From NCBI GenBank assembly GCA_003153435.1, contig PLYR01000032.1, positions 34,600 to 69,952 of the forward strand: 35,353 nt of DNA. The letters are read 5' to 3'. Made by a program: the position numbers and the translations under genes. The stretch's first letter is position 1. Every line of letters starts with the position of its first letter. Source of the DNA: Bacteroidota bacterium (GTDB taxonomy: Bacteria > Bacteroidota > Bacteroidia > Palsa-965). Below are positions 8,700-34,667 of the stretch, one piece after another. The notes beneath the pieces are model-generated. The model made no database searches. It was not told where the DNA came from and worked only from the letters and a program-made list of their open reading frames with translations.

Positions 8700-8700
8700 C

Positions 8701-9354: not shown

Positions 9355-9504
9355 TCAATTGTTGTCGTTTGGATGGCCTTATGGCAGGGTAAGATACAAT
9401 AATAGCCTGATTTAGCTTAAATTGTCCTTTATGGCACCCTTACAGAGAAGCATTTTTGAGCTACCTGGAGGGTTATTTCTGCAAAATTAGTTTAACTTGC
9501 AGGA

Positions 9505-10335
9505 GTGAAATCAGCCCTTTTACTGCGGAAAAAATCCCTTGCAAGCCTTGGAATAGTTTGCTTGCTATTCTCCATAAACACAGGAGCCCAATCCCTCTTA
9601 TCGGCGAAAGAGATCCCGTTTACCTCTTTTGCAGACACCATAAAGAAGGTGGTTAAAGACACAGCTAAGCCGGCACTCTACCCTCGTTTTATTCTTTATA
9701 TAAGTCCTGGCCTGGGAGGAAATGTCGGAAAACAAATCGGGCAGATTCAGAAAAGTGATATAACGGATGTTACCAATTCAACCTATCTGCTCCATGGCGT
9801 GAAGTATGAAAGACCTGGATTTGATTATGATGTAGGCATTCAGCTGACCGTCTTATCAACCAACAAACTTTTCCTTCGGGCTGGTGTGGGTATTGAAAAC
9901 ATTGTTTACAATGGGGTTTCTCGTGGAACAGTATTTCATACCGATAAAAATGGAGTGCTCTTGGATAGCGCTCAGGAGGAATGGTCTTATACCTTTCAGG
10001 ATGAGTTTCTTCAGGTTCCCCTTTCTTTTTCATATCGTATTTCGGAAGAAGGAAAAAATTATATGGGGATAAACCTGGGTGTTACCGGATCTGCTCTCTT
10101 GCAAGAAACCTGTAGTGGTGTCAGGATAGATGATTTTTCAGTGAAAGGTAAGTTCTCTGCTTTCGGTAGTGGAGGCTTTATCTATGTTTTCCAATCTAAG
10201 CATCCTGGAGAAGGATCTCTGAGTGTTGAGCCCGAAATGAAATACATGCTCAATCCTATGGCAGATCGAAGAGTCATGTGGACCATAGGTCTCCGGGTCG
10301 GGGTGGCCTTTGGATTCAATCAGGCTTCTAACTAA
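9505..10335 (+). CDS. Outer-membrane beta-barrel protein
   Basis: The start is GTG 9505: an in-frame stop lies 12 nt upstream (9493-9495) and no ATG precedes the signal peptide. The 276-residue product has a signal peptide (basic LRKK, hydrophobic SLGIVCLLFSI, cleavage near GAQ). The rest alternates hydrophobic and polar residues in amphipathic strands with Gly and aromatic turns (FLRAGVGIENIVYNGVS, YMGINLGVTGSALL) and a strand-like C-terminus, typical of small Bacteroidota porin-like barrels (PF13568-like). The function is unknown. AGGA directly abuts the GTG, too close to act as a normal ribosome-binding site for it. Confidence 0.75.
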   Translation: MKSALLLRKKSLASLGIVCLLFSINTGAQSLLSAKEIPFTSFADTIKKVVKDTAKPALYPRFILYISPGLGGNVGKQIGQIQKSDITDVTNSTYLLHGVKYERPGFDYDVGIQLTVLSTNKLFLRAGVGIENIVYNGVSRGTVFHTDKNGVLLDSAQEEWSYTFQDEFLQVPLSFSYRISEEGKNYMGINLGVTGSALLQETCSGVRIDDFSVKGKFSAFGSGGFIYVFQSKHPGEGSLSVEPEMKYMLNPMADRRVMWTIGLRVGVAFGFNQASN

Positions 10336-10496
10336 CCGCTTGGTTCCCCTCATTTAGATCTTACCCCTAATGTCCACATCTTCACGTGACCTATATTAAC
10401 GTTCAAATAATATTTCATATAAGATATGGAATCCCTTGCCTGATCAAATAAATAAAATTAAATTAGCCTAATGATATGAACTGACAAATTCAAGTC

Positions 10497-11621
10497 ATGA
10501 TCGAAACGACAGAAAGTCTGGCTGAACAATCACTCAAAGAAGTACTTTGGAAAGCAAATAACTATACCCGGATTATCAATGAGCTGGAAACCGGAGTTCA
10601 TTTTCAGGAATTCTTCAGCCAGTATAGTAGTTCCTCTGTTGTGGATTTCATTAAAAATTATGCATTCAAAAAGGTTTATTGGCATTTTTATGGGGAGAAG
10701 AATCTTCAGTCTCTAAAGGAAGAAAAGAATCAATGGAGCCGTGCAAGCCGCTTTTGTCTGGAATCTATCCTTCAAAAAAAACTTTTTGACCTGCAATGTC
10801 AGTGGAGAGGGAATAGAATTAAACTTCCTGGAATTGAACTTACCTCTCAATTCAAATGGTGGAGTGATCATATCTTCAGTTGCCCTTTTTTGGAGCCAGT
10901 CAACGAAATAGAGGTTGGGTATTTCATGAGATTTTTGCAGGAATCGGATTTGGGTTATCGCTTTCAGGAGAGCATGGAATGGCAAAATTTCAAAGTCATC
11001 AAGAATGATTTTTTAGCGATACCATCCGGTCAAAGAAACTGTTATTATAATACCTGGTACGAGTTTCACAATCATCAAACCGGGAATGATATCTATTTTG
11101 CATTAAATGACGAACGAGGCACGCTCGAACAATATTATTGTCAGCTTGGGGAGCAGGAAGAGACCGGAGAACGAAACATTAATCCCCCAGATTCTCGCCC
11201 CCGGCTTGAATATTCCGATGAAAAGAGGCTCGAGTATTTTTCCTCCCATTTCGATTCAAAAGAATCACATCGTAAATACCTGGAAAAGAAACACTGGCAT
11301 TCTCCATTTAATAGAATAAAGACAGCTCTTATTGAAGAGGATCTGCTCTTTCTGGAACGTCAGAAAGTGAGAGTTCCTATTGAAAGCAATGAAGACTGGA
11401 GAGTCGCTATATACAGAGCTGCAGAGCTGTTCCGAAGGAATAAAACACTTGAAAAACTTCCCATTGTGGCCCGAGATTACTGGGCCCGACTGGATAGTGG
11501 AAAACCCTTTTCAGGAGAAAGAAGAATTTTGGACACCAAAGATTTGGAAAGCGACCTTCTCCGGCAAAAAATCATCCTCGGTAGAAAAAGGAAAGGGGAG
11601 CAGGAAAACCTCGACTTTTAA
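10497..11621 (+). CDS. Uncharacterised protein, tandem paralog 1
   Basis: I do not recognise this 374-residue protein. It has no signal peptide or membrane segment and is rich in Trp, Phe, Tyr and charged residues, so it is probably cytoplasmic. It is related along its whole length to the next gene: shared blocks are QKKLFDLQC.WR (about residue 93), CPFLEP (about 130), a WYEF...IYFAL.DERGT region, a P.ESN.D.R segment near the C-terminus and a terminal GE.E.LDF. The second copy starts 11 nt downstream, so the two are probably co-transcribed after an ancient tandem duplication. I see no TAnnTTTG element in the 161-nt gap upstream. Confidence 0.8.
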   Translation: MIETTESLAEQSLKEVLWKANNYTRIINELETGVHFQEFFSQYSSSSVVDFIKNYAFKKVYWHFYGEKNLQSLKEEKNQWSRASRFCLESILQKKLFDLQCQWRGNRIKLPGIELTSQFKWWSDHIFSCPFLEPVNEIEVGYFMRFLQESDLGYRFQESMEWQNFKVIKNDFLAIPSGQRNCYYNTWYEFHNHQTGNDIYFALNDERGTLEQYYCQLGEQEETGERNINPPDSRPRLEYSDEKRLEYFSSHFDSKESHRKYLEKKHWHSPFNRIKTALIEEDLLFLERQKVRVPIESNEDWRVAIYRAAELFRRNKTLEKLPIVARDYWARLDSGKPFSGERRILDTKDLESDLLRQKIILGRKRKGEQENLDF

Positions 11622-11632
11622 CACGAGAAGAA

Positions 11633-12817
11633 ATGGAACAGGAAGAAAATAAATCTCAAAGCCCTCCGGAAGTGACCCCTGAAGTAGTTTCATTCGATTA
11701 CTTTCAGGGAGACCTGGAGCGGGCATTAAAGCGGAAAGAGCTTTATGATCATTTTCAGGAAGAGATAAGCCGAAGTGAGGAAGCAACAAGTTGGTTGGAC
11801 CAGTTTGAGCCAGAATCTGTAAAACAGTTCATTCGAAAATATGCCGACCAGCGGGCAGAATGGATGACGGAGACCATGGATTTCAAAGAATGGAATGAAA
11901 ATGATTCCCTTGAATATGTCTCAGAGGCGTTTGAGCGGCTGGTCGAAATCCAGCAGAAAAAATTATTTGATCTTCAATGCCTTTGGAGGGCTGAAAAAAT
12001 AGAATTGAGGGATGTTGAAATATGTTTTGACTTTAGGTATTGGGAACAGAGAGTGATGAACTGCCCATTTCTGGATCCTATTTCCCCGGAAGACATCGAC
12101 CTCTATCAACAATATCTCCGCTCCGGTAATTTTGAGGATGAGCAGCCTTTTATGAGCCATTGGCAGGATTACCGGGAAATCAAAGAAGCGTACGAAGAGT
12201 CAGAAGACATGGAGAGAAATTTCCCGGCCTGGTATGATTTCTACAACGGCCTCCGGGGTACTACAGTCTATATGAGCCTTCCGGATATCCGAGGGGAGAA
12301 GGAGGAGGTTTACCTTCAATTGTCACATGAAGATTTTGTTCGGAACAAAAAAAGTGAGCCTCCGGTGGTTCAGGCAGCTAAGGATAACAGACCTTATCTT
12401 TCAACTTATGGAGAAGGCGAAAAATATCTTGTCAGAACATTTGAGGATGCCCTGACGAAGAAGTACTATAAGGCGTATAAAAAACAAATGGGAGATCGGG
12501 ATGGGGAGGATTGGGAAGAATTCCCGTACGAAATTGATTGGCTGGGAATAGAACTTCAGAAGGCAAGGGAGAAGATTCCTGTGCGCTCTAATTCTGATTA
12601 TCGATTTTCATTACTTGATGCAAGGAATAATTATAAGTGGAATAAAATTGCAGATGCTATGCCAGCTGCTTATGACCAATACCTCCTGCACAAGGAAGGT
12701 GGATTGAAATTCAAAGAGGATACTTCCGTGGAACGACTTGAATTTACAAATGGTTGGAGAAGCAGCATATTCAAAGGCCGGAAGCTTGCAGGAGAACCAG
12801 AAACACTGGATTTCTGA
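11633..12817 (+). CDS. Uncharacterised protein, tandem paralog 2
   Basis: This 394-residue protein is a paralog of the preceding one and equally unrecognised. Shared blocks include QKKLFDLQCLWR, CPFLDP, WYDFYN...VYMSLPDIRG and the C-terminal GEPETLDF. It is noticeably more acidic than its neighbour, especially in the first 120 residues and around residues 180-200, while copy 1 is more basic toward its C-terminus. No secretion signal, membrane helix or catalytic motif is visible. Conserved paired copies with different charge suggest subunits of a hetero-complex, but that is inference only. Confidence 0.8.
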   Translation: MEQEENKSQSPPEVTPEVVSFDYFQGDLERALKRKELYDHFQEEISRSEEATSWLDQFEPESVKQFIRKYADQRAEWMTETMDFKEWNENDSLEYVSEAFERLVEIQQKKLFDLQCLWRAEKIELRDVEICFDFRYWEQRVMNCPFLDPISPEDIDLYQQYLRSGNFEDEQPFMSHWQDYREIKEAYEESEDMERNFPAWYDFYNGLRGTTVYMSLPDIRGEKEEVYLQLSHEDFVRNKKSEPPVVQAAKDNRPYLSTYGEGEKYLVRTFEDALTKKYYKAYKKQMGDRDGEDWEEFPYEIDWLGIELQKAREKIPVRSNSDYRFSLLDARNNYKWNKIADAMPAAYDQYLLHKEGGLKFKEDTSVERLEFTNGWRSSIFKGRKLAGEPETLDF

Positions 12818-12840
12818 ATCCTATTAGGAAGAGGAGAAGG

Positions 12841-13209
12841 CTAGTTATAGATTTTTAGTCCGATAATACCGATGAGGATAAAAATAATAAATACCAACTG
12901 AACCATCGAGACGGGCTCTTTCAACATGATTACTTCTACCAGTTTAACTCCTATGAGCGCCGCCGCCATCCAGACCGCAAAGGCTACAGATGGAGGGATA
13001 GTCTTCATTGCTTTTGAAAAACAAATGATATTTCCAACACCAAAAAGGATATACCCAAGCCCTGGCACGAGGAGCATAAAATTTGCCTTATCAGTAAAGA
13101 GAAGAGAAAACTTGAATTCCAGAAGTTTTTTAAACTGAAAATTCTTAAGGCTATAGATCCAGCATATTTCACAGGTGGATGCAATAAGGAGATAAAACCA
13201 GGCTATCAT
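12841..13209 (-). CDS. Small four-helix membrane transporter, SMR/EamA-like
   Basis: The 122-residue protein has four hydrophobic helices. It begins like small multidrug resistance proteins: WFYLLIASTCEICWIYSLK, with Glu14 at the position of the conserved SMR proton/substrate glutamate. SAFAVW-type signature is present as SVAFAVWMAA, followed by LKEPVS before the last helix. SMR proteins work as dimers and export cations such as quaternary ammonium or guanidinium compounds. The start overlaps the upstream stop codon as ATGA, so it is translationally coupled as the last gene of a sugar operon. A flippase-like role similar to ArnE/ArnF is therefore an alternative to drug efflux. Confidence 0.8.
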   Translation of the reverse strand: MIAWFYLLIASTCEICWIYSLKNFQFKKLLEFKFSLLFTDKANFMLLVPGLGYILFGVGNIICFSKAMKTIPPSVAFAVWMAAALIGVKLVEVIMLKEPVSMVQLVFIIFILIGIIGLKIYN

Positions 13210-14129
13210 AGGATTGATTCTTTCTTTTCGTTCTGACTGTTAGCAGGAGGGTGAGAAGCACGATTAGAACCCGATTTAAAGGTGTTCAGAAACGTGTGTC
13301 GTAATCCTAGGTAACGATTGATGTGTTTGTTTTTGCGCAATTTGGTTTCATCCAGACGAGTAAACAAACTTATAAATTGAAAAAAATAATCACTTGGATA
13401 AGGATAGGGAAGGCCATATTTTATGGGTTTGATATTCGGAAGATAAGCGGTTCCGAAAATCCAGTCCCATATAGCGAACTTGGTGGAGTAGTTAGCAAAG
13501 AAGACATCTTTCTGATCGGCGTGGTGCCATTGGTGCATTTCCGGGCCGTTTATGAAATACTGCAGCCTTCCTGATTTCACATTTATGTTTGAATGAATAT
13601 ACATTCCCCAAACCCCGTCGATGCAAGCTTTAATAGGAATAACGATTGGGTTAACCCCAAGGATGACCATCGGTGCAAATTCTATGGTCTGGTTGATAAT
13701 AATTTCAAGGGCGTGAGAGCGCGAACCGGCAATCCAGTCAACAAAAGTAGCCGAATGGTGTGCTTCATGAGTTCGCCAAAGAATTTTGGAATTATGCTGC
13801 CAGCGATGAAACCAATAAATGTAGAAATCGTGGATTACCAGAAAGAATAGAACCTGCCAGATAACCGGCCAGGCTTTTACGATCTGAATATCCGGAAAGC
13901 TCCAGGCATTATTAATGGGTTGAATAATAAAATCAAAGATGACAATTTTCAGGACGTAGTTTTGCACGATAGAATACCAGAAAAAGTCAATCCAGATTCC
14001 CTCCCGCAGAAAAGGAGATCCGGTGCGGTAAGGAAATTTACGCTCCAGAAAAATAAATAGCCCCATGCTGAAAAGCAGAATGGAGGAAGTGATAAATACA
14101 ATCGTGCTTTCTGACAAACTATTTTCCAT
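13206..14129 (-). CDS. Fatty acid hydroxylase / sterol desaturase family membrane protein
   Basis: The 307-residue membrane protein carries the di-iron histidine boxes of the superfamily: His100 with His108 (HDFYIYWFHR), HEAHH at 121-125, His179 and HQWHH at 199-203. These enzymes hydroxylate or desaturate acyl chains or similar lipid-like substrates at the membrane using O2. Several N-terminal helices precede the first box. The start overlaps the end of the NeuB gene by 11 nt and the stop overlaps the SMR gene, so it is firmly part of the operon. In this context it may modify a lipid carrier, an N-acyl group or the lipid that receives the sugar; the substrate is unknown. Confidence 0.85.
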   Translation of the reverse strand: MENSLSESTIVFITSSILLFSMGLFIFLERKFPYRTGSPFLREGIWIDFFWYSIVQNYVLKIVIFDFIIQPINNAWSFPDIQIVKAWPVIWQVLFFLVIHDFYIYWFHRWQHNSKILWRTHEAHHSATFVDWIAGSRSHALEIIINQTIEFAPMVILGVNPIVIPIKACIDGVWGMYIHSNINVKSGRLQYFINGPEMHQWHHADQKDVFFANYSTKFAIWDWIFGTAYLPNIKPIKYGLPYPYPSDYFFQFISLFTRLDETKLRKNKHINRYLGLRHTFLNTFKSGSNRASHPPANSQNEKKESIL

Positions 14130-15015
14130 TCATATGTGGCAGCGGAAACTTACGTAACCTTTTGAGTGGTCCAAGTTCGCTATCGTAGACTTTCTTTATT
14201 CCATCACCCAGTGCAACCTCAGCAGAGCGTATATCTCTTACCATTTTAGCCATTCCTGGCACCTCAACTGAAGCGGCATGATCGGAGCCCCACATGGCCC
14301 TATCGAGTGTGAAGTGGCGTTCCACAAAACAAGCTCCGATTGCTACAGCAACTACCGTAGTGGCGAGTCCTGTTTCATGTCCTGAATAACCTATCGGGGT
14401 ATCGGGGTACATTTCTTGGAGGGTGTTGATCATGCGCAGGTTTAGCTCTTCCGGAGGACAAGGGTATGAAGAGGTGGAGTGGGCGATGAGCAGATTGTCG
14501 GTTCCAATAGCTTTCACCGCATCTACAATTTCATTCGTTGTCGACATTCCTGTGGAAAGGATCAAGGGCTTCCCGGTAGCTTTTGTTTTCTTGATCAGAG
14601 AGATGTCTGTCAATGATGCAGAAGCCAATTTGTAAAGGACAGGATTAAACTGTTCGATAAAATCAACCGATGGTTCATCCCAGCAGGAGGCAAACCAGGC
14701 AATTCCTTTTTCACGACAGTATTTATCAATTGCAGTATATTCTTCAAGCCCGAATTCGGTTTTGCGTTTGTAATCAATATAACTCATTTGCCCCCAGGGA
14801 GTGTCACGCATAATGCTCCACTGATCTTTCGGGACACATAGCTCGGGAGTTCTTTTTTGAAATTTCACCGCATCGCAATGACATTCTGCAGCAGCATCAA
14901 TGAGTTTTTTTGCAATTTCTAGTGAACCATTGTGATTAATACCAATTTCAGCGATCACGTATGATGGTTGTCCATCGCCTATTTTTTTGTTTTTTCCAAT
15001 GTTAATAAGTCTCAT
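14119..15015 (-). CDS. neuB: NeuB-family sialic/ulosonic acid synthase lacking the SAF domain
   Basis: The 298-residue cytosolic TIM-barrel enzyme condenses phosphoenolpyruvate with an aldose to form a 2-keto-3-deoxy acid. Family motifs are intact: AEIGINHNG (22-30), KFQKR (51-55), KLASASLTD (129-137), LSTGMSTTNE (153-162), HSTSSYPCP (179-187), GYSGHETGL (209-217) and VERHFTLDR (231-239), including both metal-binding histidines. The protein stops soon after the SE...KR linker, where the usual C-terminal SAF (antifreeze-like) domain would begin; typical NeuB is about 345 residues. In N. meningitidis NeuB that domain supplies an arginine that contacts the substrate N-acetyl group, so a different aldose is likely. 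A KdsC-like phosphatase sits immediately upstream, suggesting a phosphorylated product. Confidence 0.88.
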   Translation of the reverse strand: MRLINIGKNKKIGDGQPSYVIAEIGINHNGSLEIAKKLIDAAAECHCDAVKFQKRTPELCVPKDQWSIMRDTPWGQMSYIDYKRKTEFGLEEYTAIDKYCREKGIAWFASCWDEPSVDFIEQFNPVLYKLASASLTDISLIKKTKATGKPLILSTGMSTTNEIVDAVKAIGTDNLLIAHSTSSYPCPPEELNLRMINTLQEMYPDTPIGYSGHETGLATTVVAVAIGACFVERHFTLDRAMWGSDHAASVEVPGMAKMVRDIRSAEVALGDGIKKVYDSELGPLKRLRKFPLPHMNGK

Positions 15016-15027
15016 CGCTTCTTTAGT

Positions 15028-15540
15028 TTAAGTTTTGTTTTTACTATGAATAATAAATTCGGCAACTTCCCGGAAACATCCATTGCCACCTTTGTTTGTG
15101 CACTTGTAATGAATGGCATGCTGGATCAGGTCCATTGCATCTGCGGGGCACGCTGCCAGACCAACGGCACGAAGCACTTCAAGGTCGTTTACATCATCTC
15201 CAATGTAGGCAATTTCTTCTGGTTTGAGATTCTTTCGGCTCAGTATTTCCGCTAGTCTTTCTGTTTTATTTTTTACACCGAGGTGCAATTCAGTAATATT
15301 CAGTTTCTCTGCCCGCTTTGCAACAGATGGTGATATTTCACCGGTTATGATACCGGTCTCCACATTACAGATCTTTAACAGGCGTTCCACACCCATGCCA
15401 TCCCGAATAGAGAATCGTTTAAGTACTTCACCTTCTGCACCATAATAAACACCAGCATCGGTTAGTACACCATCACAATCGGTGAGGAGAAGTTTAATTC
15501 TCCCGGCACGGGCACTTACATCTGTTAAATTCATAATCAT
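15028..15540 (-). CDS. KdsC-like HAD phosphatase
   Basis: ATG 15540 is chosen, 1 nt after the SDR stop codon (ATG 15534 is also possible), giving about 170 residues, usual for KdsC-type tetrameric HAD phosphatases without a cap domain. Visible motifs are LLLTDCDGVLTD (motif I, nucleophile and general-acid Asp), ITGE (motif II Thr), a conserved Lys in LGVKNK, and YIGDDVNDLEV (motif III Asp). KdsC removes phosphate from Kdo-8-P; relatives hydrolyse Kdn-9-P or Neu5Ac-9-P. Placed between the SDR and NeuB genes, it probably dephosphorylates the NeuB product before CMP activation. Confidence 0.88.
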   Translation of the reverse strand: MIMNLTDVSARAGRIKLLLTDCDGVLTDAGVYYGAEGEVLKRFSIRDGMGVERLLKICNVETGIITGEISPSVAKRAEKLNITELHLGVKNKTERLAEILSRKNLKPEEIAYIGDDVNDLEVLRAVGLAACPADAMDLIQHAIHYKCTNKGGNGCFREVAEFIIHSKNKT

Positions 15541-15541
15541 G

Positions 15542-16348
15542 TCAGATTGCTGTCCATCCTCCATCCACAACCAGGTTTGCTCCGGTCATATAAGCGGAGG
15601 CATTGGAAGCCAGAAATATCAACGCCCCTTTATAATCCGAAGGAGAAGCCATGCGGCCCAGCAGGGTTTTGTCGGTATAATTTTTTACAAAGTGTTCGTC
15701 CTGGTTATTCTCCACGCCACCAGGAGAAAGCGTATTCACTCTTACTCCTTTAGAACCCCAATAAGCCGCGAGGTAACGTGTAAAGTTAATGATAGCACCT
15801 TTCGTAGCAGGGTATGAGGGGGATTTATAAAAAGAGTGTTTCCCGTTTTTATCTTTGTAAATACTTTGATCCGGGCCTACCATTCCGTAGGTCGAAGCAA
15901 TATTGATGATGCTTCCTGAGCCTTGCTCAGCCATCGGTGTTCCGAATATTTGAGAGCACAGGAAGACCCCGGTTACATTCACCTGCCAGGATTTTTCCCA
16001 CATATCCAGAGGATAGTTTTCAAACATGCTTTGCTTCCCGGCGAGTAGCGGATTTTCAAACATATCATTGATGGCTGCATTATTTACAAGAATATCAATG
16101 TGTTTGTATTTAGAAAGAATGAGGTCTCTTGCGGCTTTTAGAGATTCCGGATTGGTGACATCAGCCGAGAGACCCAGGTGATTTCCACCGAGGGAGTCCG
16201 CCTTTTCTTTGCATGCTTTTTCCTGAATATCACAGACCACAACATTGGCTCCGGCTGCAGCAAGTGCTTCTACATGCTTTGACCCGAGCAGCCCGCAGGC
16301 ACCCGTAACAATTGCGGTTTTATTCTTCAGAGAAAAAAGGTCCATCAT
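15542..16348 (-). CDS. Short-chain dehydrogenase/reductase (SDR)
   Basis: The 268-residue classical SDR has a Rossmann nucleotide-binding motif TGACGLLG near residues 15-22, DVTN, NNAA near residue 92, a catalytic Ser, and Tyr-x3-Lys in SYPATKGA, then a GG(W)-type C-terminus (VVDGGWT). The Asp in VVCDIQ at the end of the second beta strand favours NAD(H) over NADP(H). An unusually long insertion sits between the catalytic Ser and Tyr (the KDKNGKHSFYKS region), as in some polysaccharide-locus SDRs. It is 3 nt from the aminotransferase gene and 1 nt from the phosphatase gene. Likely role: oxidation or reduction of a sugar intermediate. Confidence 0.88.
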   Translation of the reverse strand: MMDLFSLKNKTAIVTGACGLLGSKHVEALAAAGANVVVCDIQEKACKEKADSLGGNHLGLSADVTNPESLKAARDLILSKYKHIDILVNNAAINDMFENPLLAGKQSMFENYPLDMWEKSWQVNVTGVFLCSQIFGTPMAEQGSGSIINIASTYGMVGPDQSIYKDKNGKHSFYKSPSYPATKGAIINFTRYLAAYWGSKGVRVNTLSPGGVENNQDEHFVKNYTDKTLLGRMASPSDYKGALIFLASNASAYMTGANLVVDGGWTAI

Positions 16349-16351
16349 AAC

Positions 16352-17701
16352 TTATCCTTTAACAGCAGCCTGCTTAGGTTTGATATTATAATTACTCACT
16401 TTACGGAAAACCATTTCGAGGGGTTCACCTTTTAAAGCCTCTGCTACCTTATTTGCTTTCACCGCATCTTTAAGCAGGCCGAGTACTTCCCGGTATGCTT
16501 TGAGGGTATAAGAAATATCTTCATCGCTATGCGTAAAGCACATGTTATGAAAACCGGCCCATAGTATTCCCCGCTTGATCATTTCCTGTTGTACAAAACT
16601 TTTGAGAATGAGCGGGTCCCCGGCGGAGGCATCGAAGGTAACGATGGTCCTGCAGTTATAGCCTGAACACTTGGTATAGGATGCAATTCCCAGTTCTTCC
16701 GCTATCTTGTTATATCCATCTTTAAGTAGGGCTCCTTTTTTATCAAGTGCAGCAGCTACATTTTTCTCTTTCATCTCGGTAATGGTGGCTATGGCAGCAG
16801 CCATGGAAAGAGCTTCACCTCCAAAGGTGGTGAAGAAGAACACTTCTTTCTCGAAAAGCTGCATAACATCTTTACGTCCGGTGAGGAGGGAAATTGGCAT
16901 TCCATTTGCAAAGGCTTTTGAATAAACAGCCAGATCCGGTTTTATTCCGAAATACTCTTGAGCACCACCCAGAGCAACCCGGAAGCCAGTCCACATCTCA
17001 TCAAAAATAAGGAGTGTTCCATTCTTCTTACAGGCAGCCTGAACTTTCTGGAGAAAATCATCTTTAGGGGCTTCAAAGATAAACGGTTCCAGGATCACGC
17101 AAGCTGTATCGCTGTCGAGGGAGCTGATCAGAGAATCAATATTGTTATAATCGAAAGTATGGGTGAGATCTTTCACCTCGGAAGGGATTCCTTTATCGCG
17201 GCTTGTGATCCCTATATACCAGTCATGCCATCCGTGATATCCGCAACAAAGAACTTTTGTACGTCCGGTAAATGCTCTGGAAATTCGCACAGCAGCGCTG
17301 CACACATCTGCACCTGTTTTGCTGATCCGGATGGATTCTGCATTCGGAATAATGCTGTGAACGAGTTCGGCAAGTTCAACTTCCATTTCATGCATCAGGG
17401 AAAAGGTGATGCCATCTTTCAGCTGGGTGATGATGGCCTGGTCTACCTTGTCGTAACAATATCCAAGAGAGATAGGACCTATGCCCATGTTGTAATCAAT
17501 AAATTCGTTTCCATCCACATCCCATACATGCGCATCCTTTCCTCTTTTGAGATATTTAGGAGCGACCCCTTTCATAAACTGACCGGGTCCTTTAGCGAGA
17601 GTCTGCGTAACGGGGTGCATAATTTTAGAAGCCCTAGCGTAGAGTTCATCGGAATGAGTGATGTCGGGATAATTTGAATTGAATTCGATTTTGTTTTTCA
17701 T
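16352..17701 (-). CDS. Class III PLP aminotransferase, glutamate-1-semialdehyde aminomutase-like
   Basis: The 449-residue enzyme has the fold signature of class III aminotransferases and is closest in pattern to glutamate-1-semialdehyde 2,1-aminomutase: CGYHGWHDWY (153-162), LIFDEMWTGFR with the PLP-ring Asp234, and the Schiff-base Lys262 in YSKAFANGMP. Given its setting in a tightly packed sugar operon, it is unlikely to be the haem-pathway enzyme. It more likely aminates a keto-sugar or moves an amino group between neighbouring carbons. It starts 3 nt from the split transketolase C-half. A C-terminal tail of about 40 residues is longer than in HemL. Confidence 0.87.
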   Translation of the reverse strand: MKNKIEFNSNYPDITHSDELYARASKIMHPVTQTLAKGPGQFMKGVAPKYLKRGKDAHVWDVDGNEFIDYNMGIGPISLGYCYDKVDQAIITQLKDGITFSLMHEMEVELAELVHSIIPNAESIRISKTGADVCSAAVRISRAFTGRTKVLCCGYHGWHDWYIGITSRDKGIPSEVKDLTHTFDYNNIDSLISSLDSDTACVILEPFIFEAPKDDFLQKVQAACKKNGTLLIFDEMWTGFRVALGGAQEYFGIKPDLAVYSKAFANGMPISLLTGRKDVMQLFEKEVFFFTTFGGEALSMAAAIATITEMKEKNVAAALDKKGALLKDGYNKIAEELGIASYTKCSGYNCRTIVTFDASAGDPLILKSFVQQEMIKRGILWAGFHNMCFTHSDEDISYTLKAYREVLGLLKDAVKANKVAEALKGEPLEMVFRKVSNYNIKPKQAAVKG

Positions 17702-17704
17702 GTT

Positions 17705-18625
17705 TTATGCTTTTGTAAGAGTTTTCTTTTCTAATTCTGTGATAATGTTATGCGCTATTTTTTCTCCTGTAAACCCTTCGAATTTCAGTACTTCCTGCAG
17801 AAGGGCGGGCTTAAACCATTTTTCATGAAGCGCTATTGGAAGAACATGTGCTGTGGTGTGATGACGTAAGAATGTTTCTGCCACCATGGTATAAAGTCCA
17901 CCAGTAAGAAAATGATCTTCGATGGTGACCAGCAGGCGGGAGTTTTTGGCCGCATCCAGTATAGCCTTTTCATCCAGTGGTTTTAAGGAACGCATATTGA
18001 CAAGTCCGACAGAAAGCCCTTCTTTTTCAAGAATTGTTTTTGTCTTCAGAGTTTCTTCGAAAAGCATTCCGTAGACGAGGAGGGTGACATCCGTTCCTGT
18101 GGCAACCACTTCGGCCTTGCCAATTTCGAAAACTGGATTATGCTTGAAATCTGTTTTCCGGATATTAATTCTTACATAAGCCGGATTAGGAGAGGACCAT
18201 ATTTTCGGAAGAGCACCCAGCAAATCCTGTTCATCGGCAGGAGCAAAGACTTGCATCCCTGGTATTCCTCTCATGATTGAAATGTCTTCAATAGCCTGGT
18301 GAGTGGGTCCGTTTCCATCAGATAGAAAACCGGGGATCCAACTGCTAAGCTTAACAGGAAGATTCGGAATACCAAGGTCGGTTCTGATAAATTCAAAGGC
18401 ACGCATCGTAAGAAAGGAAGCGAGGGCATGAACCACAGGAATCCTTCCACGAAGTGCTAATCCAGCAGCCGCTCCAATCATGGTTTGTTCGGTGATACCG
18501 GTATCAATAAAGCGCTCTTTCAGTGTAGCCGGCATGTTTCTCACCAGGGCTCTGTTCTCTGCAGTCATCACCACAAAGCGTTCATCGGCCAGAGCAGTAT
18601 CTCTTAATAATTCTTCGTAGCTCAT
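17705..18625 (-). CDS. Split transketolase, C-terminal half
   Basis: The 306-residue protein contains the pyrimidine-binding and C-terminal domains of transketolase. The Glu that activates thiamine diphosphate is present (Glu46 in DTGITEQTMIG), along with GPTHQAIEDI, the FAPAD segment and the C-terminal RSLKPLD region. Its partner half is the preceding gene (3-nt gap), so the two must form an alpha2-beta2 enzyme. Transketolases move a two-carbon ketol unit between a ketose and an aldose. Split forms occur in archaea and in bacterial secondary metabolism and surface-sugar loci, so this copy is probably dedicated to the operon rather than to the pentose phosphate pathway. Confidence 0.92.
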   Translation of the reverse strand: MSYEELLRDTALADERFVVMTAENRALVRNMPATLKERFIDTGITEQTMIGAAAGLALRGRIPVVHALASFLTMRAFEFIRTDLGIPNLPVKLSSWIPGFLSDGNGPTHQAIEDISIMRGIPGMQVFAPADEQDLLGALPKIWSSPNPAYVRINIRKTDFKHNPVFEIGKAEVVATGTDVTLLVYGMLFEETLKTKTILEKEGLSVGLVNMRSLKPLDEKAILDAAKNSRLLVTIEDHFLTGGLYTMVAETFLRHHTTAHVLPIALHEKWFKPALLQEVLKFEGFTGEKIAHNIITELEKKTLTKA

Positions 18626-18628
18626 GAT

Positions 18629-19486
18629 TTATCGGACTATAAGTGTTTCGGATTCTATGTTGGTCTGCTCAGCACCGTGCAGTTCTTTCAAAAGACTTTT
18701 TATTTCTTCTTTGTTGAAATTACAGAACCAGCGGTCGGCTCGGGCTTCAATACTTGGAAGCCCTTTTCCGCGAATGGTATCGGCAATGATAACACTTGGT
18801 TTATCAGCGGAGAGCGGCAGAGCCCTGAATGCTTCCTCAAGTTGAAGAAAATCATGTCCGTTTATTCTTTTCACCTTGCAACCAAAAGCTTCAAACTTAT
18901 CGGCAAGCGGCTCCAGGGGGATGAGGTCTTCTGTGGCTACATTCGCTTGGAACTGATTACGGTCTATCACAAATGTAAGGTTGTTCAGCTTGTGAGCGCA
19001 GGCAACAAGAACCGCTTCCCAGACTGACCCTTCATTGAGCTCACCGTCACCGGTCACCACTATGACCTTATTGTTCTGCTTTCTCATTCTGCAATCAAAT
19101 GCCACACCCATTGCTACAGATGGGAGGTGCCCAAGCGACCCGGAATGAAACTCTACACCGGGAACATTCCGGTTGGGGTGCCAGTATACAGAGTCGTTGG
19201 TCTGTAAATGATTTTTCAGGCGATCTTTATCCATCAGTCCAAGCTCCGCAAAGGTTCCATAAAGTGCCGGGACATCATGTCCTTTAGAGAGGAACAGATA
19301 ATCTCGTTCGGGGGAGGTAAGGTTGCCTTTGTGGACGTTCAGGAAGTCGGAATAGAGATAGACCAGGAGATCTGCACAAGAGAGTGATGCACCTGTAAAG
19401 CAACCTCCATCGGTACTCAGGTTGATGATATGTTCTCTTACCTTAAGGGCTGTTTGTTCCAGTTGTTTTCTTTTTTCCTCTTTCAT
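18629..19486 (-). CDS. Split transketolase, N-terminal (thiamine diphosphate) half
   Basis: The 285-residue protein is the thiamine-diphosphate-binding domain of transketolase: SKGH with His70, GSLGH with His120, and the GDG...N motif (GDGELNEG at 146-153, closing Asn in VIDRNQFQ). DVPALY and WHPNRNVPGVEFHSG are conserved substrate-side segments. It lies 1 nt from the cytidylyltransferase gene and 3 nt from the C-terminal half. Together the two halves would catalyse ketol transfer, for instance to build or shorten the sugar later condensed by NeuB. Confidence 0.92.
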   Translation of the reverse strand: MKEEKRKQLEQTALKVREHIINLSTDGGCFTGASLSCADLLVYLYSDFLNVHKGNLTSPERDYLFLSKGHDVPALYGTFAELGLMDKDRLKNHLQTNDSVYWHPNRNVPGVEFHSGSLGHLPSVAMGVAFDCRMRKQNNKVIVVTGDGELNEGSVWEAVLVACAHKLNNLTFVIDRNQFQANVATEDLIPLEPLADKFEAFGCKVKRINGHDFLQLEEAFRALPLSADKPSVIIADTIRGKGLPSIEARADRWFCNFNKEEIKSLLKELHGAEQTNIESETLIVR

Positions 19487-19487
19487 T

Positions 19488-20297
19488 TTAAGCTTCTTTG
19501 GTTTGTTCAGGCCTGATTGTTTTCAATTCGTCCAGATGGTTGCGGTACCAATTAACGCCAGCATACCGGCTATTGATCTGGAATATATCAGAGCGCTTAT
19601 CTACGAGGGCCAGGATATCGTTGATGCCGAATTTTGGATTTATCGGGTAAAGTTCGGTGTAAATACGTTCAATGAAACGGTAATCTTCCATATAATCAAT
19701 TGTCCATCGGTGAGACATGGAATAGTCCTTTCCTGATTCCCAGGAAAAGTTGCCTATCCTGAATTTGTCGGGATTTTCCCAGAGATAAGGGGTGGTATGT
19801 TCCCTCTCCAGTTCCCGTTTGGCTTCTTTCCAGGCTTTTTCCAGTGCAGGAAAGGTCATTATTTCCACATCATTACCATCAGGATAAGAAGCAGGGTGGA
19901 GGTTACTTACGTAATCAAATTCGTTGCGGTGATCTAGAAAGAATTGGATTCCCTTATCAATGATAGCAGGGTCTATGAGTGGGCAGTCTGAAGGAATTTT
20001 TAATATGATATCGGCCTGGAAAACTTTGGCAGCCTGATAATGACGATCTAGCAAATCGGTCGGGTGACCCCGGAAACAAATCAGGTTATTTGCTTTACAC
20101 AGTTCTTCAACTGGATTATCGGTGCTGTCGGTGGTTGTTGCAATAACAACGGTTCCGCAAAGCCGGGAAAGCTGGACTCTTTCTGCCATCCGAACCAGCA
20201 ATGGTTTTGAAACGAGGGGAAGAAGGATCTTGCCAGGCAGACGGCTGGAGCCTGTACGAGCCTGAATAAGAGTAAGGATCTTAACTGGCTGTTGCAA
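19488..20297 (-). CDS. spsF: SpsF-type cytidylyltransferase (CMP-sugar synthetase family)
   Basis: The 269-residue nucleotidyltransferase begins LTLIQARTGSSRLPGK (residues 9-24), the CTP-binding signature of the SpsF/CMP-NeuAc synthetase family. IPSDCPLIDPAIID near residue 100 is the metal-binding segment and MSHRWTIDYMEDY is characteristic of the SpsF branch. It should activate the ulosonic acid with CMP, or another sugar acid with a nucleotide. The start overlaps the upstream gene by 17 nt, and the transketolase gene follows after 1 nt. In Bacillus SpsF works with SpsE (a NeuB homolog), matching the presence of NeuB here. Confidence 0.88.
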   Translation of the reverse strand: MQQPVKILTLIQARTGSSRLPGKILLPLVSKPLLVRMAERVQLSRLCGTVVIATTTDSTDNPVEELCKANNLICFRGHPTDLLDRHYQAAKVFQADIILKIPSDCPLIDPAIIDKGIQFFLDHRNEFDYVSNLHPASYPDGNDVEIMTFPALEKAWKEAKRELEREHTTPYLWENPDKFRIGNFSWESGKDYSMSHRWTIDYMEDYRFIERIYTELYPINPKFGINDILALVDKRSDIFQINSRYAGVNWYRNHLDELKTIRPEQTKEA

Positions 20298-21327
20298 GCG
20301 AGAAAGTGTTAAGAGAAGAATGCTGCTTTAAAAAAGCACTGCCGTCGCCGTTGAACTCCACATATCCTTTGCAAACATCGGCAATCATCCGGGCAGAATT
20401 TCCTTCGGTCTGAATCGGCACGAGCCGGTTCAGTTCAGCCAGATCAAAATAAGAGTGAACTTTCTTACCCAGGATAATGCCTACATACACTACCGTGGAG
20501 AATTGGGTGATGAGCTCACTGCAATTGGCGATCATATGATTTATATTTCCTTCTGTAAGAATCAGGGTATCGGCAGGTGCATTATCACGGATCTCCTGAA
20601 CGGCCCTGTCCATCTTCTCATTGGGATGAAGCTTGAAGATCAGTTTTCTGCCGTTGGCAATCTGAACAGCTTCCCGGATAAAGGCAGGGCGGTTATCATA
20701 GCGGAAACATTCCCGGATGTCGGAAGTTGCCACGAGGACAAAATCTTTATGCGGGAAATCATTATTGCGGTTCTCCGCAAGGTTATCGAAATTAGGAATC
20801 CCGGTCACGACAATCTTGGAGGCTTCAGTGCCCATGCGGCTGATATGCCTTTTATATCCTTCCGAAGCGGCGCAATATATATCACAGAGATTGGAAGAGC
20901 CGTTTAAAGAGGTTCCAAGGGCAAGATAACGGGGAAGCTTAAAAAATTTGGTGATCTTTGCTACAATCGTCAGCTCATCTATCATGCCTTCCTGCACCCA
21001 GATGGTTTTAACACCTCTGAAAACTTTGGGCACAATCATATCGGTACAGGCAACAACCAAATCATACCGGTTATTATAGACTGCGGCACAGTAATCGTTT
21101 TTTAAATTATTTTTTTTCAGATAATGGTCAGCTTTTACTTTAAATTCACCCGCCATAACCGTATGATCTAACAGGCCAAGTTTAACAGTCGTCCGGATCA
21201 TAAAATGATTGGCAAAAATCTGACTGAAATAGCAATCATATTCATCCGACAGGAAGGATGAAATCTGATGCATTTGTGAAGTCTGGTTGGGAGAGCCGAC
21301 CAGGAAAATGATTTTTTTTTTCGACAT
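20281..21327 (-). CDS. GT-B-fold polysaccharide biosynthesis protein (glycosyltransferase or 2-epimerase-like)
   Basis: ATG 21327 is chosen because a TACCTTTG promoter element lies just upstream; a longer frame to 21426 would start above that promoter. The 348-residue product has an N-terminal Rossmann-like start (KKIIFLVGSPNQTSQMH), a middle region with IWVQEGM, and a C-terminal half with VTGIPNFDNL, FKLHPNEKM and an ELITQFSTVVYVGIILGKKV segment. These are typical of GT-B proteins from capsule loci that resemble UDP-GlcNAc 2-epimerases or CDP-glycerol-type transferases. No signal peptide or membrane helix. As first gene of the operon it could transfer the CMP-activated sugar or make its precursor; I cannot decide which. 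Confidence 0.7.
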   Translation of the reverse strand: MSKKKIIFLVGSPNQTSQMHQISSFLSDEYDCYFSQIFANHFMIRTTVKLGLLDHTVMAGEFKVKADHYLKKNNLKNDYCAAVYNNRYDLVVACTDMIVPKVFRGVKTIWVQEGMIDELTIVAKITKFFKLPRYLALGTSLNGSSNLCDIYCAASEGYKRHISRMGTEASKIVVTGIPNFDNLAENRNNDFPHKDFVLVATSDIRECFRYDNRPAFIREAVQIANGRKLIFKLHPNEKMDRAVQEIRDNAPADTLILTEGNINHMIANCSELITQFSTVVYVGIILGKKVHSYFDLAELNRLVPIQTEGNSARMIADVCKGYVEFNGDGSAFLKQHSSLNTFSLATAS

Positions 21328-21351: not shown

Positions 21352-21359
21352 CAAAGGTA
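21352..21359 (-). promoter_or_regulatory. -7 element of the ten-gene sugar operon
   Basis: On the minus strand the sequence is TACCTTTG, a perfect TAnnTTTG element, about 25 nt before ATG 21327. No clear TTTG is visible about 20 nt further upstream, so it may be weak or activator-dependent. Confidence 0.45.
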
Positions 21360-21461: not shown

Positions 21462-22619
21462 ATGAAGAATTTATCGGGATTTCTCATCATATTCTTCCTG
21501 TTTTCCTTTAATAATGGCTTTTCACAAAACTCCGACAGCTTACATATTTCACCTTCCCAGGTAGGTGCTGATTCGGCTAAACCAACACTTTATTCCCGGT
21601 TTACGAACATTTTTAAGGATAAAAGCTATGTCATCGCTCCTGAACTTGGCCGAAAGCCGGAAACAGGTGTATTAGGAGGAGTTTTCTGGCTTCAGGTCTT
21701 CCAGCTTTCCAAGCATGCCGATTCAACTACACGCAAATCGAATACAGAAAGCTATATTGATTATACCGAAAAGAAGCAGATCCTTGCTCAGGTCAAGAAC
21801 AACCTCATTTTCAAAAACGAACGCTTTTTTCTGAAAGGAGAAAACTACTACAACAAATTCCCCGACCTCTATTGGGGAATAGGGCCTACAACCACCACGG
21901 CCATGCAACAGCCTGTTTCTTATGAACTTCTCAATATTACCCAGCGCTTACTAACCCGCATCAGTACCCGATATTTTGCTGGAATTGTTTATCAATATGT
22001 CAGTGTTTCGAATGTTCAGTATTCGCATGGGGGAGTGCTTGATTCGGTAAATATATCAGGCACCAAAGGGAGTACAACCTCCGGTGTTGGGTTTGATTTT
22101 TTATATGACTCGAGAGACAATATTCTGAATAGTTATAAAGGTCTTTATCTGGAAGTGTCGGCCATATATAATCAGAAAGAGTTTGGAGGGAACCATTATT
22201 TCAATAATTACACAATCGATCTCCGGGACTTTATAAATTTTGGAGGCAGAAAAGTACTGGCTCTGCAGGGTTTGATCAATTATAATACCGGCGATGTTCC
22301 TTTTCGTCAGATGGCTTGCCTGGGAGGAGATATGATTATGCGAGGTTACTATTTCGGCCGTTTCAGGGACAAGCTGATGGTTGCGGCACAAGCGGAGTTT
22401 CGGTTTCCTGTTTGGAGATTTATCGGATTGACCGCCTTCGTTTCCGGAGGAGAGGTGGCCCCTAATTTTGGTGGGCTCAATTGGCCGGACCTTCAATATA
22501 CTGTTGGATTATGTCTGAGGATTATGATCAACAAATCAGAACGCCTGAACATGGGAATCGATTCAGGAATTGGCAAGAATACATCCGGATTGTATTTCAA
22601 TTCCGGAGAAGCCTTTTGA
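21462..22619 (+). CDS. Omp85-type outer-membrane beta-barrel (surface antigen family)
   Basis: The 385-residue protein has a signal peptide (LSGFLIIFFLFSF, cleavage near GFSQ) and then only a barrel of the bacterial surface antigen type, without POTRA domains. Diagnostic points are amphipathic strands such as GVGFDFLYDSRDNILNSYKG, and GGDMIMRGYYFGRFRDK, which carries the RGY/RGF loop motif that enters the barrel lumen in BamA-type proteins. Such POTRA-less barrels are common in Bacteroidota; substrate and role are unknown. It is divergent from the sugar operon, sharing a gap of about 130 nt. Confidence 0.8.
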   Translation: MKNLSGFLIIFFLFSFNNGFSQNSDSLHISPSQVGADSAKPTLYSRFTNIFKDKSYVIAPELGRKPETGVLGGVFWLQVFQLSKHADSTTRKSNTESYIDYTEKKQILAQVKNNLIFKNERFFLKGENYYNKFPDLYWGIGPTTTTAMQQPVSYELLNITQRLLTRISTRYFAGIVYQYVSVSNVQYSHGGVLDSVNISGTKGSTTSGVGFDFLYDSRDNILNSYKGLYLEVSAIYNQKEFGGNHYFNNYTIDLRDFINFGGRKVLALQGLINYNTGDVPFRQMACLGGDMIMRGYYFGRFRDKLMVAAQAEFRFPVWRFIGLTAFVSGGEVAPNFGGLNWPDLQYTVGLCLRIMINKSERLNMGIDSGIGKNTSGLYFNSGEAF

Positions 22620-22625
22620 TGGTCA

Positions 22626-23243
22626 TTACCTCCAAAAAAATAGCAGTGTCCCGCTCACCGCTCCCAGTAAAAAGCCTATCACCACCTGCATAGGAGTATG
22701 CACTTTCAGATATAAACGGGAAGCACAAACTCCCAGCGTAAGCAGAGAAATGGCCAGATATATTGCTCCAAATCCTTCCGGAGGGTATCTCCAATAAAGC
22801 ACCGTGATGATGGCAAACACCCCCGAAACTCCGGAAGCATGAGTGCTGATTTTCCAGTACCGGTTAATGAGTGTGATACCAGCAATTGTAATCGTACTGG
22901 CCAGCATAGACAAGGTAAGGCCGTCTTTCATCCCTAGTCTCCGAACCAGATAAATCGTGATAGCCACATAAACCAGGAGCAGAAAGATTTGTGGAATCGT
23001 TCGGTCCTTCTGGTTTTCAAGGGTTACCCTGGCAATCAGCTTCATTTTATAAAGCATGAAAATAAGAAGGAAGGAGAATAGAAAGGTGGAAAGGAAGATC
23101 AGGCCAATGGCATGTAGTTTCTCTTCTTGGCTTGTCAGTGTTTCGAGGCCTGGAAAATAAAACAAAAGCAGGATGAAAAGAAAAGTCGGAGCCATGAGTG
23201 GGTTGATCACCACCGAAAGAAGGTTTGCCAGAAATCTTACCAT
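22626..23243 (-). CDS. PAP2-family membrane protein with altered catalytic motif
   Basis: The 205-residue protein has about six hydrophobic helices and residues resembling the PAP2 phosphatase motifs: ENQKDRTIP (motif 1 region), STHASG (motif 2, His) and SRLYLKVHTPMQ (motif 3). In motif 3 the usual Ser-Arg-x5-His-x3-Asp has Gln in place of Asp, so the charge-relay residue is missing. It may be a divergent subfamily using another residue, or a non-catalytic lipid-binding protein. It is convergent with the Omp85 gene (6-nt gap). Confidence 0.75.
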   Translation of the reverse strand: MVRFLANLLSVVINPLMAPTFLFILLLFYFPGLETLTSQEEKLHAIGLIFLSTFLFSFLLIFMLYKMKLIARVTLENQKDRTIPQIFLLLVYVAITIYLVRRLGMKDGLTLSMLASTITIAGITLINRYWKISTHASGVSGVFAIITVLYWRYPPEGFGAIYLAISLLTLGVCASRLYLKVHTPMQVVIGFLLGAVSGTLLFFWR

Positions 23244-23298
23244 GCTTTGCTCGTTTTATTAATTCCCTGCACCAGAATACCGGCTTTTGAATTTTAAG

Positions 23299-23306
23299 CA
23301 AAAATA
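23299..23306 (-). promoter_or_regulatory. Candidate -7 element for the PAP2-like gene
   Basis: Minus-strand TATTTTTG fits TAnnTTTG and lies 56-63 nt upstream of the ATG at 23243. No good -33 element is seen at the expected distance. Confidence 0.3.
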
Positions 23307-23557
23307 GACAGGCCGGGTGAATAAAGGAAATTTGAATGGAAATATACCCAAGTGCCTCAAAAAGAGAGTATAAGACGGAAAATGAAGGCTCCGTTTTCGG
23401 TTTGAGTGAATGCGGAACGATTTACCGGCCTAAAAAAATAAGAATGGATGAAAAGTCGCAAAAATGCATGTAAATACAATAAAAAAGGCCAATAATTGCA
23501 TTAATTCTTTCAATTATTCGATTATTTTCACAAAACCTTATTTTCCGGGAACCCTCA

Positions 23558-23589
23558 TTTGTTCATTTTGCTTATTTCAAGTAACTTTG
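23558..23589 (+). promoter_or_regulatory. Strong Bacteroidota-type promoter
   Basis: TTTG at 23558-23561, then exactly 20 nt, then TAACTTTG at 23582-23589: a full match to the consensus. The predicted start near 23596 leaves about 180 nt of leader before the small lysine-rich gene at 23778. Confidence 0.6.
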
Positions 23590-23595
23590 GGTTAA

Positions 23596-23777
23596 GGTTA
23601 AAGTAACATGGTAAGAATAAAATAAAGCATCTTTAGCAACTTCTTCCTAACCCACCTCCGGTTCTCTGATAAGGACGAATCCAGAGGTTAGATTCTAAGG
23701 ATTTCATAACAGAGAATTTCTAAAAAAGACCGGAGACGTACTTTCATTCCGGTTATGTTGAACGAATAGCATTATTT
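23596..23777 (+). other. Structured 5' leader with mutually exclusive stems
   Basis: This leader lies in the 534-nt stretch without a gene (23244-23777). It holds CTCTG/CAGAG (23664-23668 with 23682-23686) flanked by CTAAC/GTTAG (23647-23651 with 23687-23691). ACCGGAG at 23729-23735 can pair with CTCCGGT at 23656-23662, or its first six bases can pair with TCCGGT at 23748-23753, but not both. The second hairpin ends 24 nt before the ATG. This is the architecture of a regulatory leader, though no known riboswitch class is recognised. The part 23307-23557 shows nothing definable beyond A/T-rich sequence. Confidence 0.4.
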
Positions 23778-23963
23778 ATGGCAAAAGCATCGCGTAAAAA
23801 AGCAAAGAAGAAAGCAAAAAAAGCAAAGAAGTCCCTTCAACCGATTATTGATATCCTGAATGGAGTACCTCCCCGGGAACCTAAACCCGTAAGGTCATTT
23901 ATGGAGATTTACTGGGCAGAAGAATCAGAGGAGCCCGGACGCAGATCCAGAACTGGTTCCTGA
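23778..23963 (+). CDS. Small lysine/alanine-rich basic protein
   Basis: The 61-residue protein starts with a strongly basic tract of Lys-Ala units (residues 2-18), followed by a short hydrophobic helix-like segment (LQPIIDILNG), a Pro-rich linker and an acidic-then-basic tail. The basic N-terminus resembles histone-H1-like or ribosome-associated tails, so nucleic-acid binding is plausible but unproven. A strong promoter and long leader upstream support it as a real gene. It ends 1 nt from the convergent FkbM gene. No family is recognised. Confidence 0.6.
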   Translation: MAKASRKKAKKKAKKAKKSLQPIIDILNGVPPREPKPVRSFMEIYWAEESEEPGRRSRTGS

Positions 23964-23964
23964 A

Positions 23965-34574: not shown

Positions 34575-34667
34575 GGAAAGAGAGAATACCCTAAAGGATA
34601 AACAGAAAGAGTGAATTTCTTTCTCCGTGCCGGTGACGCCCTTTGTGTTCAATTGAATTTTTTTGTA

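Follow-up and report, generated by a model that had tools for sequence, protein, structure and literature searches.

A conserved ten-gene operon of Bacteroidota that may direct synthesis of an aminated KDN-type ulosonic acid

We analyzed a 35,353-nucleotide stretch of a Bacteroidota bacterium genome (GenBank assembly GCA_003153435.1, contig PLYR01000032.1, C30 here, positions 34,600 to 69,952; hereafter the window). The genome measures 4.0 Mb and is estimated to be 98% complete. Ten closely packed open reading frames (ORFs) occupy positions 12841-21327 on the minus strand, with gaps of 1-12 nt and overlaps of 4-17 nt, calculated with gene 1 starting at the ATG at 21327 and the phosphatase gene at the one at 15540; 21327 is also the position at which the orthologs of gene 1 start. 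These ORF coordinates confirm the layout described in an earlier reading made from the DNA letters alone (the sequence-only reading). A promoter element that it placed before gene 1 was rejected, as TACCTTTG occurs once in the window, at 21352-21359 on the minus strand, against 1.42 occurrences expected by chance, and a search for TTG 20 nt upstream of it found none.

Families were assigned with Pfam and NCBIfam profiles. In order of transcription, the first gene (20281..21327) encodes a GT-B-like protein (GT), predicted from an AlphaFold model, fold comparisons and a profile to be a probable CMP-sugar glycosyltransferase resembling TagF and polysialyltransferases. It is followed by an SpsF-type cytidylyltransferase with a TTG start (19488..20297; PF02348, 106.5 bits), the thiamine diphosphate (ThDP)-binding half of an atypical split transketolase-like enzyme (TKN; 18629..19486; PF00456) and its partner, the pyrimidine/C-terminal half (TKC; 17705..18625; PF02779/PF02780). 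Next are a class III, glutamate-1-semialdehyde (GSA)-like pyridoxal phosphate (PLP) aminotransferase (AT3; 16352..17701; PF00202, 158.6 bits), a short-chain dehydrogenase/reductase (SDR)-family NAD(P) oxidoreductase (15542..16348; PF13561, 164.4 bits), and a haloacid dehalogenase (HAD) C0 phosphatase of the group formed by KdsC and the 9-phosphate phosphatase of 2-keto-3-deoxynononic acid (KDN) (15028..15540; NF058599, 156.4 bits). The last three genes encode a NeuB-family ulosonic acid (phosphate) synthase of 298 aa (14119..15015; PF03102, 264.5 bits), a membrane enzyme of the fatty-acid-hydroxylase/sterol-desaturase family (FAH; 13206..14129; PF04116), and a small SMR/EamA-like membrane transporter that is a possible flippase (12841..13209; PF00893).

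The class III assignment of AT3 is backed by its family profile and by Lys262, which we take to be the PLP lysine and which is kept in 54/54 sequences; on NCBIfam PRK06209 the protein scores 371.6 bits, under the cut-off of 486. Ser152, Tyr179 and Lys183 of the SDR are kept in 56/56 sequences, and the protein also exceeds the cut-off of the epimerase/dehydratase family PF01370 (31.9 bits against 20.9), with adh_short_C2 scoring 164.4. The histidine clusters of FAH are kept in all 44 sequences compared.

All ten orthologs were found in the same order in three genomes of the same genus, with the SDR ORF apparently broken in one of them (L035). The wider set comprises the best 80 of 538 relatives from a public-genome scan with a NeuB alignment and is not a random sample; one locus (L041) shares a contig with L035, and L044 and L053 carry one strain name. 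AT3 was found in 52 of these 80 loci, counting one with an AT3 only 41% identical (L111) and one with a partial AT3 (L076). In 49 of the 52, the detected genes keep to one strand and to this order, although some of these loci end at contig ends, so that 3 to 10 genes are visible. The exceptions are L045, where NeuB precedes SDR, L056, which is split into two opposed halves, and L111, which has another arrangement. The transketolase-like pair is complete in 42 of the 52 AT3 loci and all ten functions are present in 23, with HAD separate or fused, while FAH and SMR occur in 43/47 and 31/47 full clusters. Since gene order is conserved both within the genus and across the wider loci, the ten-gene operon is real and not a chance arrangement. 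Colinear AT3 clusters occur in three phyla, Bacteroidota, Ignavibacteriota and Chloroflexota, the record titles naming Bacteroidota, Ignavibacteria and Anaerolineae. In a tree of AT3 from the window and 47 loci with a near-complete AT3, sequences from an Anaerolineae bin (L077) and Promineifilum (L118) form a supported pair. Anaerolineae are not known to have an outer membrane, which argues against a role confined to lipopolysaccharide, though the Anaerolineae sequences come from metagenome bins.

HAD and NeuB are fused in 14 of the 80 loci, mostly in Mucilaginibacter (L055, fused only through ORF extension, was left out of the count), and a cytidylyltransferase is fused to AT3 in L111; these fusions link steps of the pathway. 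Matches to the operon NeuB in 59 genomes near the window are at least 59% identical, the next falling to 39%, which marks the protein as part of a discrete group; its gene had no DNA match in E. coli genomes. Two loci (L036, 11104-14241, and L051) carry a short HAD-NeuB-FAH variant with two tandem SMR genes, which may form a heterodimeric SMR pair, and no AT3, SDR or GT ortholog alongside. A contig binned as the archaeon Methanoculleus (L117) encodes a NeuB at 67% identity, with a HAD match of only 33%, reflecting either transfer or mis-binning.

NeuB, the KdsC-like HAD, SpsF and the probable GT together support a CMP-ulosonate pathway, as the sequence-only reading had held. NeuB is a NeuB-type ulosonate synthase by its PF03102 match and by Glu23, Lys51, His213 and His234, presumably the catalytic residues, which are kept in 85/85 sequences. 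It falls under the equivalog cut-offs for N-acetylneuraminate synthase (252 vs 399.65 bits) and pseudaminate synthase (217.6 vs 340.25 bits), and the Pfam search gave no SAF domain hit, again in agreement with that reading. It is the one strong NeuB of the source genome (265 bits); a second match, on contig C2, scores 46.8 bits, and 124.6 on the KdsA model. The legionaminic/pseudaminic dehydratase, DegT aminotransferase, acetyltransferase and epimerase, the four families that define those routes, are the best match of none of the ten operon proteins (the rest of the genome was not searched), which bears out their reported absence for the operon itself.

The nature of the aldose is suggested by the phosphatase. 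A phosphatase beside or fused to NeuB indicates that the NeuB product is phosphorylated. When aligned by profile to BT1713, a KDN-9-phosphate phosphatase (PDB 3e81), the operon HAD shares the TGE...RAEK pattern, whereas KdsC-type chains in the alignment show TGR or SGR and lack a Lys at the second position. The Glu and Arg are each kept in 72/72 sequences and the Lys in 71/72, after two hits under 40% identity were dropped. Lu (2009) is said to have identified Glu56 and Lys67 of BT1713 as markers of KDN-9-phosphate phosphatase, and we take the operon Glu and Lys to be their equivalents. These markers point to a hexose-6-phosphate as the substrate of NeuB and to a KDN-like product, which we predict with moderate confidence.

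How the sugar is aminated is suggested by a counterpart in Chlorobiaceae. There, HAD and NeuB stand together, with NeuB 65-71% identical to that of the window, and a separate row elsewhere in the genome encodes a membrane protein, a GT ortholog, a cytidylyltransferase, an Fe-alcohol dehydrogenase (Fe-ADH) and a DegT aminotransferase (the family names come from Pfam matches of L142). This row was whole in 4/4 loci examined (L142, L143, L190, L191), and the GT orthologs, in three loci, are 44-48% identical to gene 1. The best solved relative of the Chlorobium ferrooxidans DegT aminotransferase is KdnA (5k8b; 276.7 bits), with the next at 164.6 bits. KdnB and KdnA, reportedly the subject of work by Gattis (2013), oxidise and aminate the finished ulosonic acid 3-deoxy-D-manno-octulosonic acid (Kdo). 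The KdnA-like enzyme was found at 80-100% identity in 13/14 Chlorobi genomes, and no AT3 ortholog was found in the three Chlorobi genomes tested.

Co-occurrence was then counted in 395 genomes of the phylum, a draw rich in Chlorobiaceae, with cut-offs of E <= 1e-90 for NeuB, E <= 1e-110 for AT3 and E <= 1e-140 for the Chlorobi-type KdnA-like enzyme. This NeuB subfamily is present in 138/395 genomes and 41/171 genera. AT3 occurs in 53 genomes, all 53 of which also encode NeuB, within 6 kb of AT3 in 45. The KdnA-like enzyme occurs in 80 genomes, 76 of them with NeuB; the four without it are 77-91% complete. Both aminotransferases together occur in 0/395 genomes. The swap between AT3 and the KdnA-like enzyme, never found together, and the constant company of AT3 with NeuB argue for amination of the finished ulosonic acid. 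By analogy with KdnB and KdnA acting on Kdo, SDR and AT3 most likely perform this step, and the simplest account is that SDR with AT3 and Fe-ADH with the KdnA-like enzyme are alternative oxidation/transamination pairs for the same ulosonic acid.

We therefore propose, with a probability of about one half, that the enzymes of the operon build an aminated KDN-type ulosonic acid, activate it and transfer it to an acceptor. The proposal builds on observed gene families, synteny, fusions, conserved residues and co-occurrence, from which all substrates and the position of the amine are inferred. NeuB would condense phosphoenolpyruvate (PEP) with a hexose-6-phosphate, mannose-6-phosphate being a first guess, to give a nine-carbon 3-deoxy-ulosonic acid phosphate, from which HAD would remove the phosphate. 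SDR would then oxidise a hydroxyl, most likely the terminal one at C9, and AT3 would transaminate the resulting carbonyl to yield something like 9-amino-3,9-dideoxy-KDN. SpsF would convert this to the CMP-sugar, and GT would move the sugar onto an acceptor. FAH and SMR may serve later, optional steps, namely hydroxylation followed by flipping or export of a lipid-linked product; that SMR does the flipping is a guess. The transketolase-like pair would act as an atypical ThDP enzyme that, in most lineages, adds a tailoring or supply reaction.

Several observations weigh against this proposal. The C. ferrooxidans Fe-ADH matches KdnB less well (61.7 bits) than it does other alcohol dehydrogenases (98.7 bits), and one Chlorobi genome of 1.5 Mb (G062) has HAD-NeuB and no GT or KdnA-like match. 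Neither aminotransferase was found in 9/138 NeuB genomes, of which five are 95% complete or more. All 80 genomes with the KdnA-like enzyme belong to one family (f60), so independent replacements are few, and the replacement may be a single event. The count of zero for both holds at E <= 1e-140; the genome of the window carries, alongside AT3, a Kdo8N-type KdnA 39% identical to the Chlorobi enzyme, and that of L046 one 41% identical. The HAD scores under the KDN-9-phosphate phosphatase equivalog cut-off of NF058599 (156.4 vs 180 bits) and nearly as well on the KdsC model (150.5 bits). The scheme leaves the transketolase-like pair without an explained role, and gene 1 may be an epimerase relative. 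Finally, L067 has SDR-HAD-NeuB and no AT3 ortholog in its genome. In that Saprospiraceae locus (8290-19840), a GT, a Gfo/Idh oxidoreductase and another cytidylyltransferase follow further on, and the cluster possibly makes a related, unaminated sugar.

The KdsC score, together with the closeness of the Chlorobi aminotransferase to KdnA, an enzyme acting on Kdo, would fit an eight-carbon, Kdo-like sugar, in which NeuB would use a pentose-5-phosphate and the product would be an analogue or isomer of 8-amino-8-deoxy-Kdo (Kdo8N). We consider this unlikely: the HAD has the KDN-type Glu/Lys pair and not the Arg of KdsC, and the genome has a separate gene set for such a sugar. On contig C89 (L188, 7930-11080), a KdsA gene (341.8 bits) neighbors genes for KdnB (427.5 bits to 5k8c) and for KdnA (432.8 bits to 5k8b); the cluster is predicted to make Kdo8N in this Bacteroidota genome, and none of the three is among the ten operon proteins. 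The operon therefore probably serves another sugar, which weakens Kdo or Kdo8N as its product. Kdo8N is called a hallmark of Shewanella in PMC6357163.

The aminated KDN-type sugar also has to be weighed against a route in which amination comes first. The sequence-only reading proposed that the precursor aldose is made by ketol transfer and amination, so that the transketolase pair and the aminotransferase build an amino-aldose that NeuB condenses with PEP. There is precedent in the aminoshikimate pathway of rifamycin, where a split transketolase makes an imino-tetrose phosphate, and the frequent presence of both halves beside AT3, in the usual order, favors it. Two halves with ThDP-binding and catalytic motifs (Glu46, His109-Gln110, His70, His103) are indeed present. 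Most canonical substrate residues, by contrast, are absent or replaced when one housekeeping TKN and two TKC serve as reference (positions given in what we take to be E. coli transketolase numbering), and the split transketolase of the sequence-only reading stands only in that qualified form. The H26 equivalent is F in 43/43 TKN orthologs, and in 46/46 TKC orthologs that of H461 is I, V or F and that of D469 is N. The R358 position falls before the protein start, S385 is kept in 1/46 and the region around H261 is different; Arg152, at the R520 position, is kept in 46/46. Housekeeping transketolase halves keep these ketose-phosphate contacts, and such a split pair is encoded separately in the source genome, on contig C128. 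Relatives from contig C75 and two other genomes were rejected as a housekeeping pair after their starts appeared DXS-like by eye.

The pair is also optional. Two clusters without it have AT3 proteins 79-84% identical to those of transketolase-bearing neighbors. No ortholog was found elsewhere in six genomes lacking it, where the nearest relatives are 28-34% identical and one genome has none at the cut-off. The AT3 tree requires three gains or losses of the pair, at least two on supported branches. A pair of this kind, with an altered substrate pocket, is unlikely to supply AT3 with its substrate or to act on ordinary sugar phosphates in the usual manner; as far as sequence can tell, it is an optional, atypical ThDP enzyme. 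Together with the KdnA-type enzyme in place of AT3 in Chlorobiaceae and the hexose-6-phosphate markers of HAD, this makes ketol transfer and amination of the aldose an improbable route, and we set it aside as the main reading.

Gene 1 could lead to a different starting point, as a NeuC-like hydrolysing 2-epimerase would place a UDP-amino-sugar at the head of the pathway and leave the operon without a transferase. Its AlphaFold model (pLDDT 90.4) is GT-B-like. Foldseek ranked the CMP-bound capsule multienzyme 8a0c first (E 1.9e-09) with 2-epimerases close behind, and VIA-align ranked NeuC and UDP-GlcNAc 2-epimerases first (Z 17.9) ahead of polysialyltransferase and TagF (14.8); absence of a family from the VIA-align list was never counted as evidence. 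Epimerase_2 was matched in 29/38 orthologs (best E 5.5e-07) and Glyphos_transf, the TagF family, in 16/38, while the window protein falls under the Pfam Epimerase_2 cut-off (23.2 vs 30.6). The best solved sequence for its profile is the TagF-like polymerase Cps3D (E 0.0023), with no epimerase among the solved sequences up to E 10. HP and QEG are invariant in 38 sequences and look similar to motifs of sialyltransferases. We favor a CMP-sugar transferase and regard an epimerase start as quite doubtful; the other nine proteins matched no kinase family that could supply the phosphatase.

A broader and rather speculative reading, which we think unlikely, is that the operon represents a new class of nonulosonic acids that are aminated after condensation by either of two unrelated aminotransferase/dehydrogenase pairs. 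In lineages with the remodelled ThDP enzyme, acyl or ketol transfer would extend or branch the oxidised tail, and the sugar would decorate a glycan or lipid of both outer-membrane and single-membrane bacteria. 

Given the spread of the NeuB subfamily over more than a third of the genomes sampled, environmental bacteria may commonly carry an uncharacterised acidic sugar, and gene lists built on legionaminic and pseudaminic acid would miss its pathway. The proposal makes a directly testable prediction, an amine on a KDN-like sugar installed by either of two enzyme pairs.

Around the operon, a divergent Omp85-domain gene adjoins gene 1 (21462-22619), and an ORF of similar size and orientation occupies this position in the three same-genus genomes. 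No inverted repeats were found within 23200-24000. An RCC1-repeat protein with a Por secretion tail is encoded at 29065-31623.

No paper describing the gene set was found among openly licensed PubMed Central papers. Each enzyme family is known; the complete gene combination, the conservation of that combination and the exchange of aminating enzymes did not turn up in that literature, and the description of the pathway as new or little described stands to that extent. Leptospira was rejected as a model: transketolase appears nowhere in PMC3438082, and the fusion described there has the phosphatase at the C-terminus, the reverse of the arrangement here. In Legionella pneumophila serogroup 6, the O-antigen cluster has a NeuB as well as a GSA-aminomutase-like gene next to an acylneuraminate cytidylyltransferase; unlike the operon, it lists PseG, acetyltransferases and DegT as well, and the word transketolase is absent from the text of the paper (PMC3694923). 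Legionaminic/pseudaminic and spore-coat sps clusters share the NeuB fold and the SpsF family with the operon, which differs in having a phosphatase and no dedicated dehydratase, acetyltransferase, DegT aminotransferase or SAF domain. With the split transketolases of Carboxydothermus (6yaj) and of its own contig C128, the operon pair shares a two-subunit ThDP architecture and the GDG, Glu and His-Gln motifs. It differs from them in that the equivalents of His26, His261, Arg358, Ser385, His461 and Asp469 are missing or changed in almost every ortholog compared, and that of Arg520 is kept.

Two further known systems are close to the operon. KDN biosynthesis in Bacteroides thetaiotaomicron, reportedly described by Wang (2008), has in common with the operon a NeuB-family synthase, a HAD with Glu/Lys markers and a cytidylyltransferase. 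The operon adds the SDR, the class III aminotransferase, the transketolase-like pair, GT, FAH and SMR, and its HAD lies below the equivalog cut-off; the B. thetaiotaomicron work is cited in PMC6200933. Kdo8N synthesis in Shewanella oneidensis (KdnA/KdnB; 5k8b, 5k8c) is alike in that a finished ulosonic acid is oxidised and transaminated, as we propose for the operon, and the Chlorobiaceae version is alike in its KdnA-like enzyme, whereas the operon itself has no KdsA, KdnA or KdnB, that set being encoded elsewhere in the same genome.

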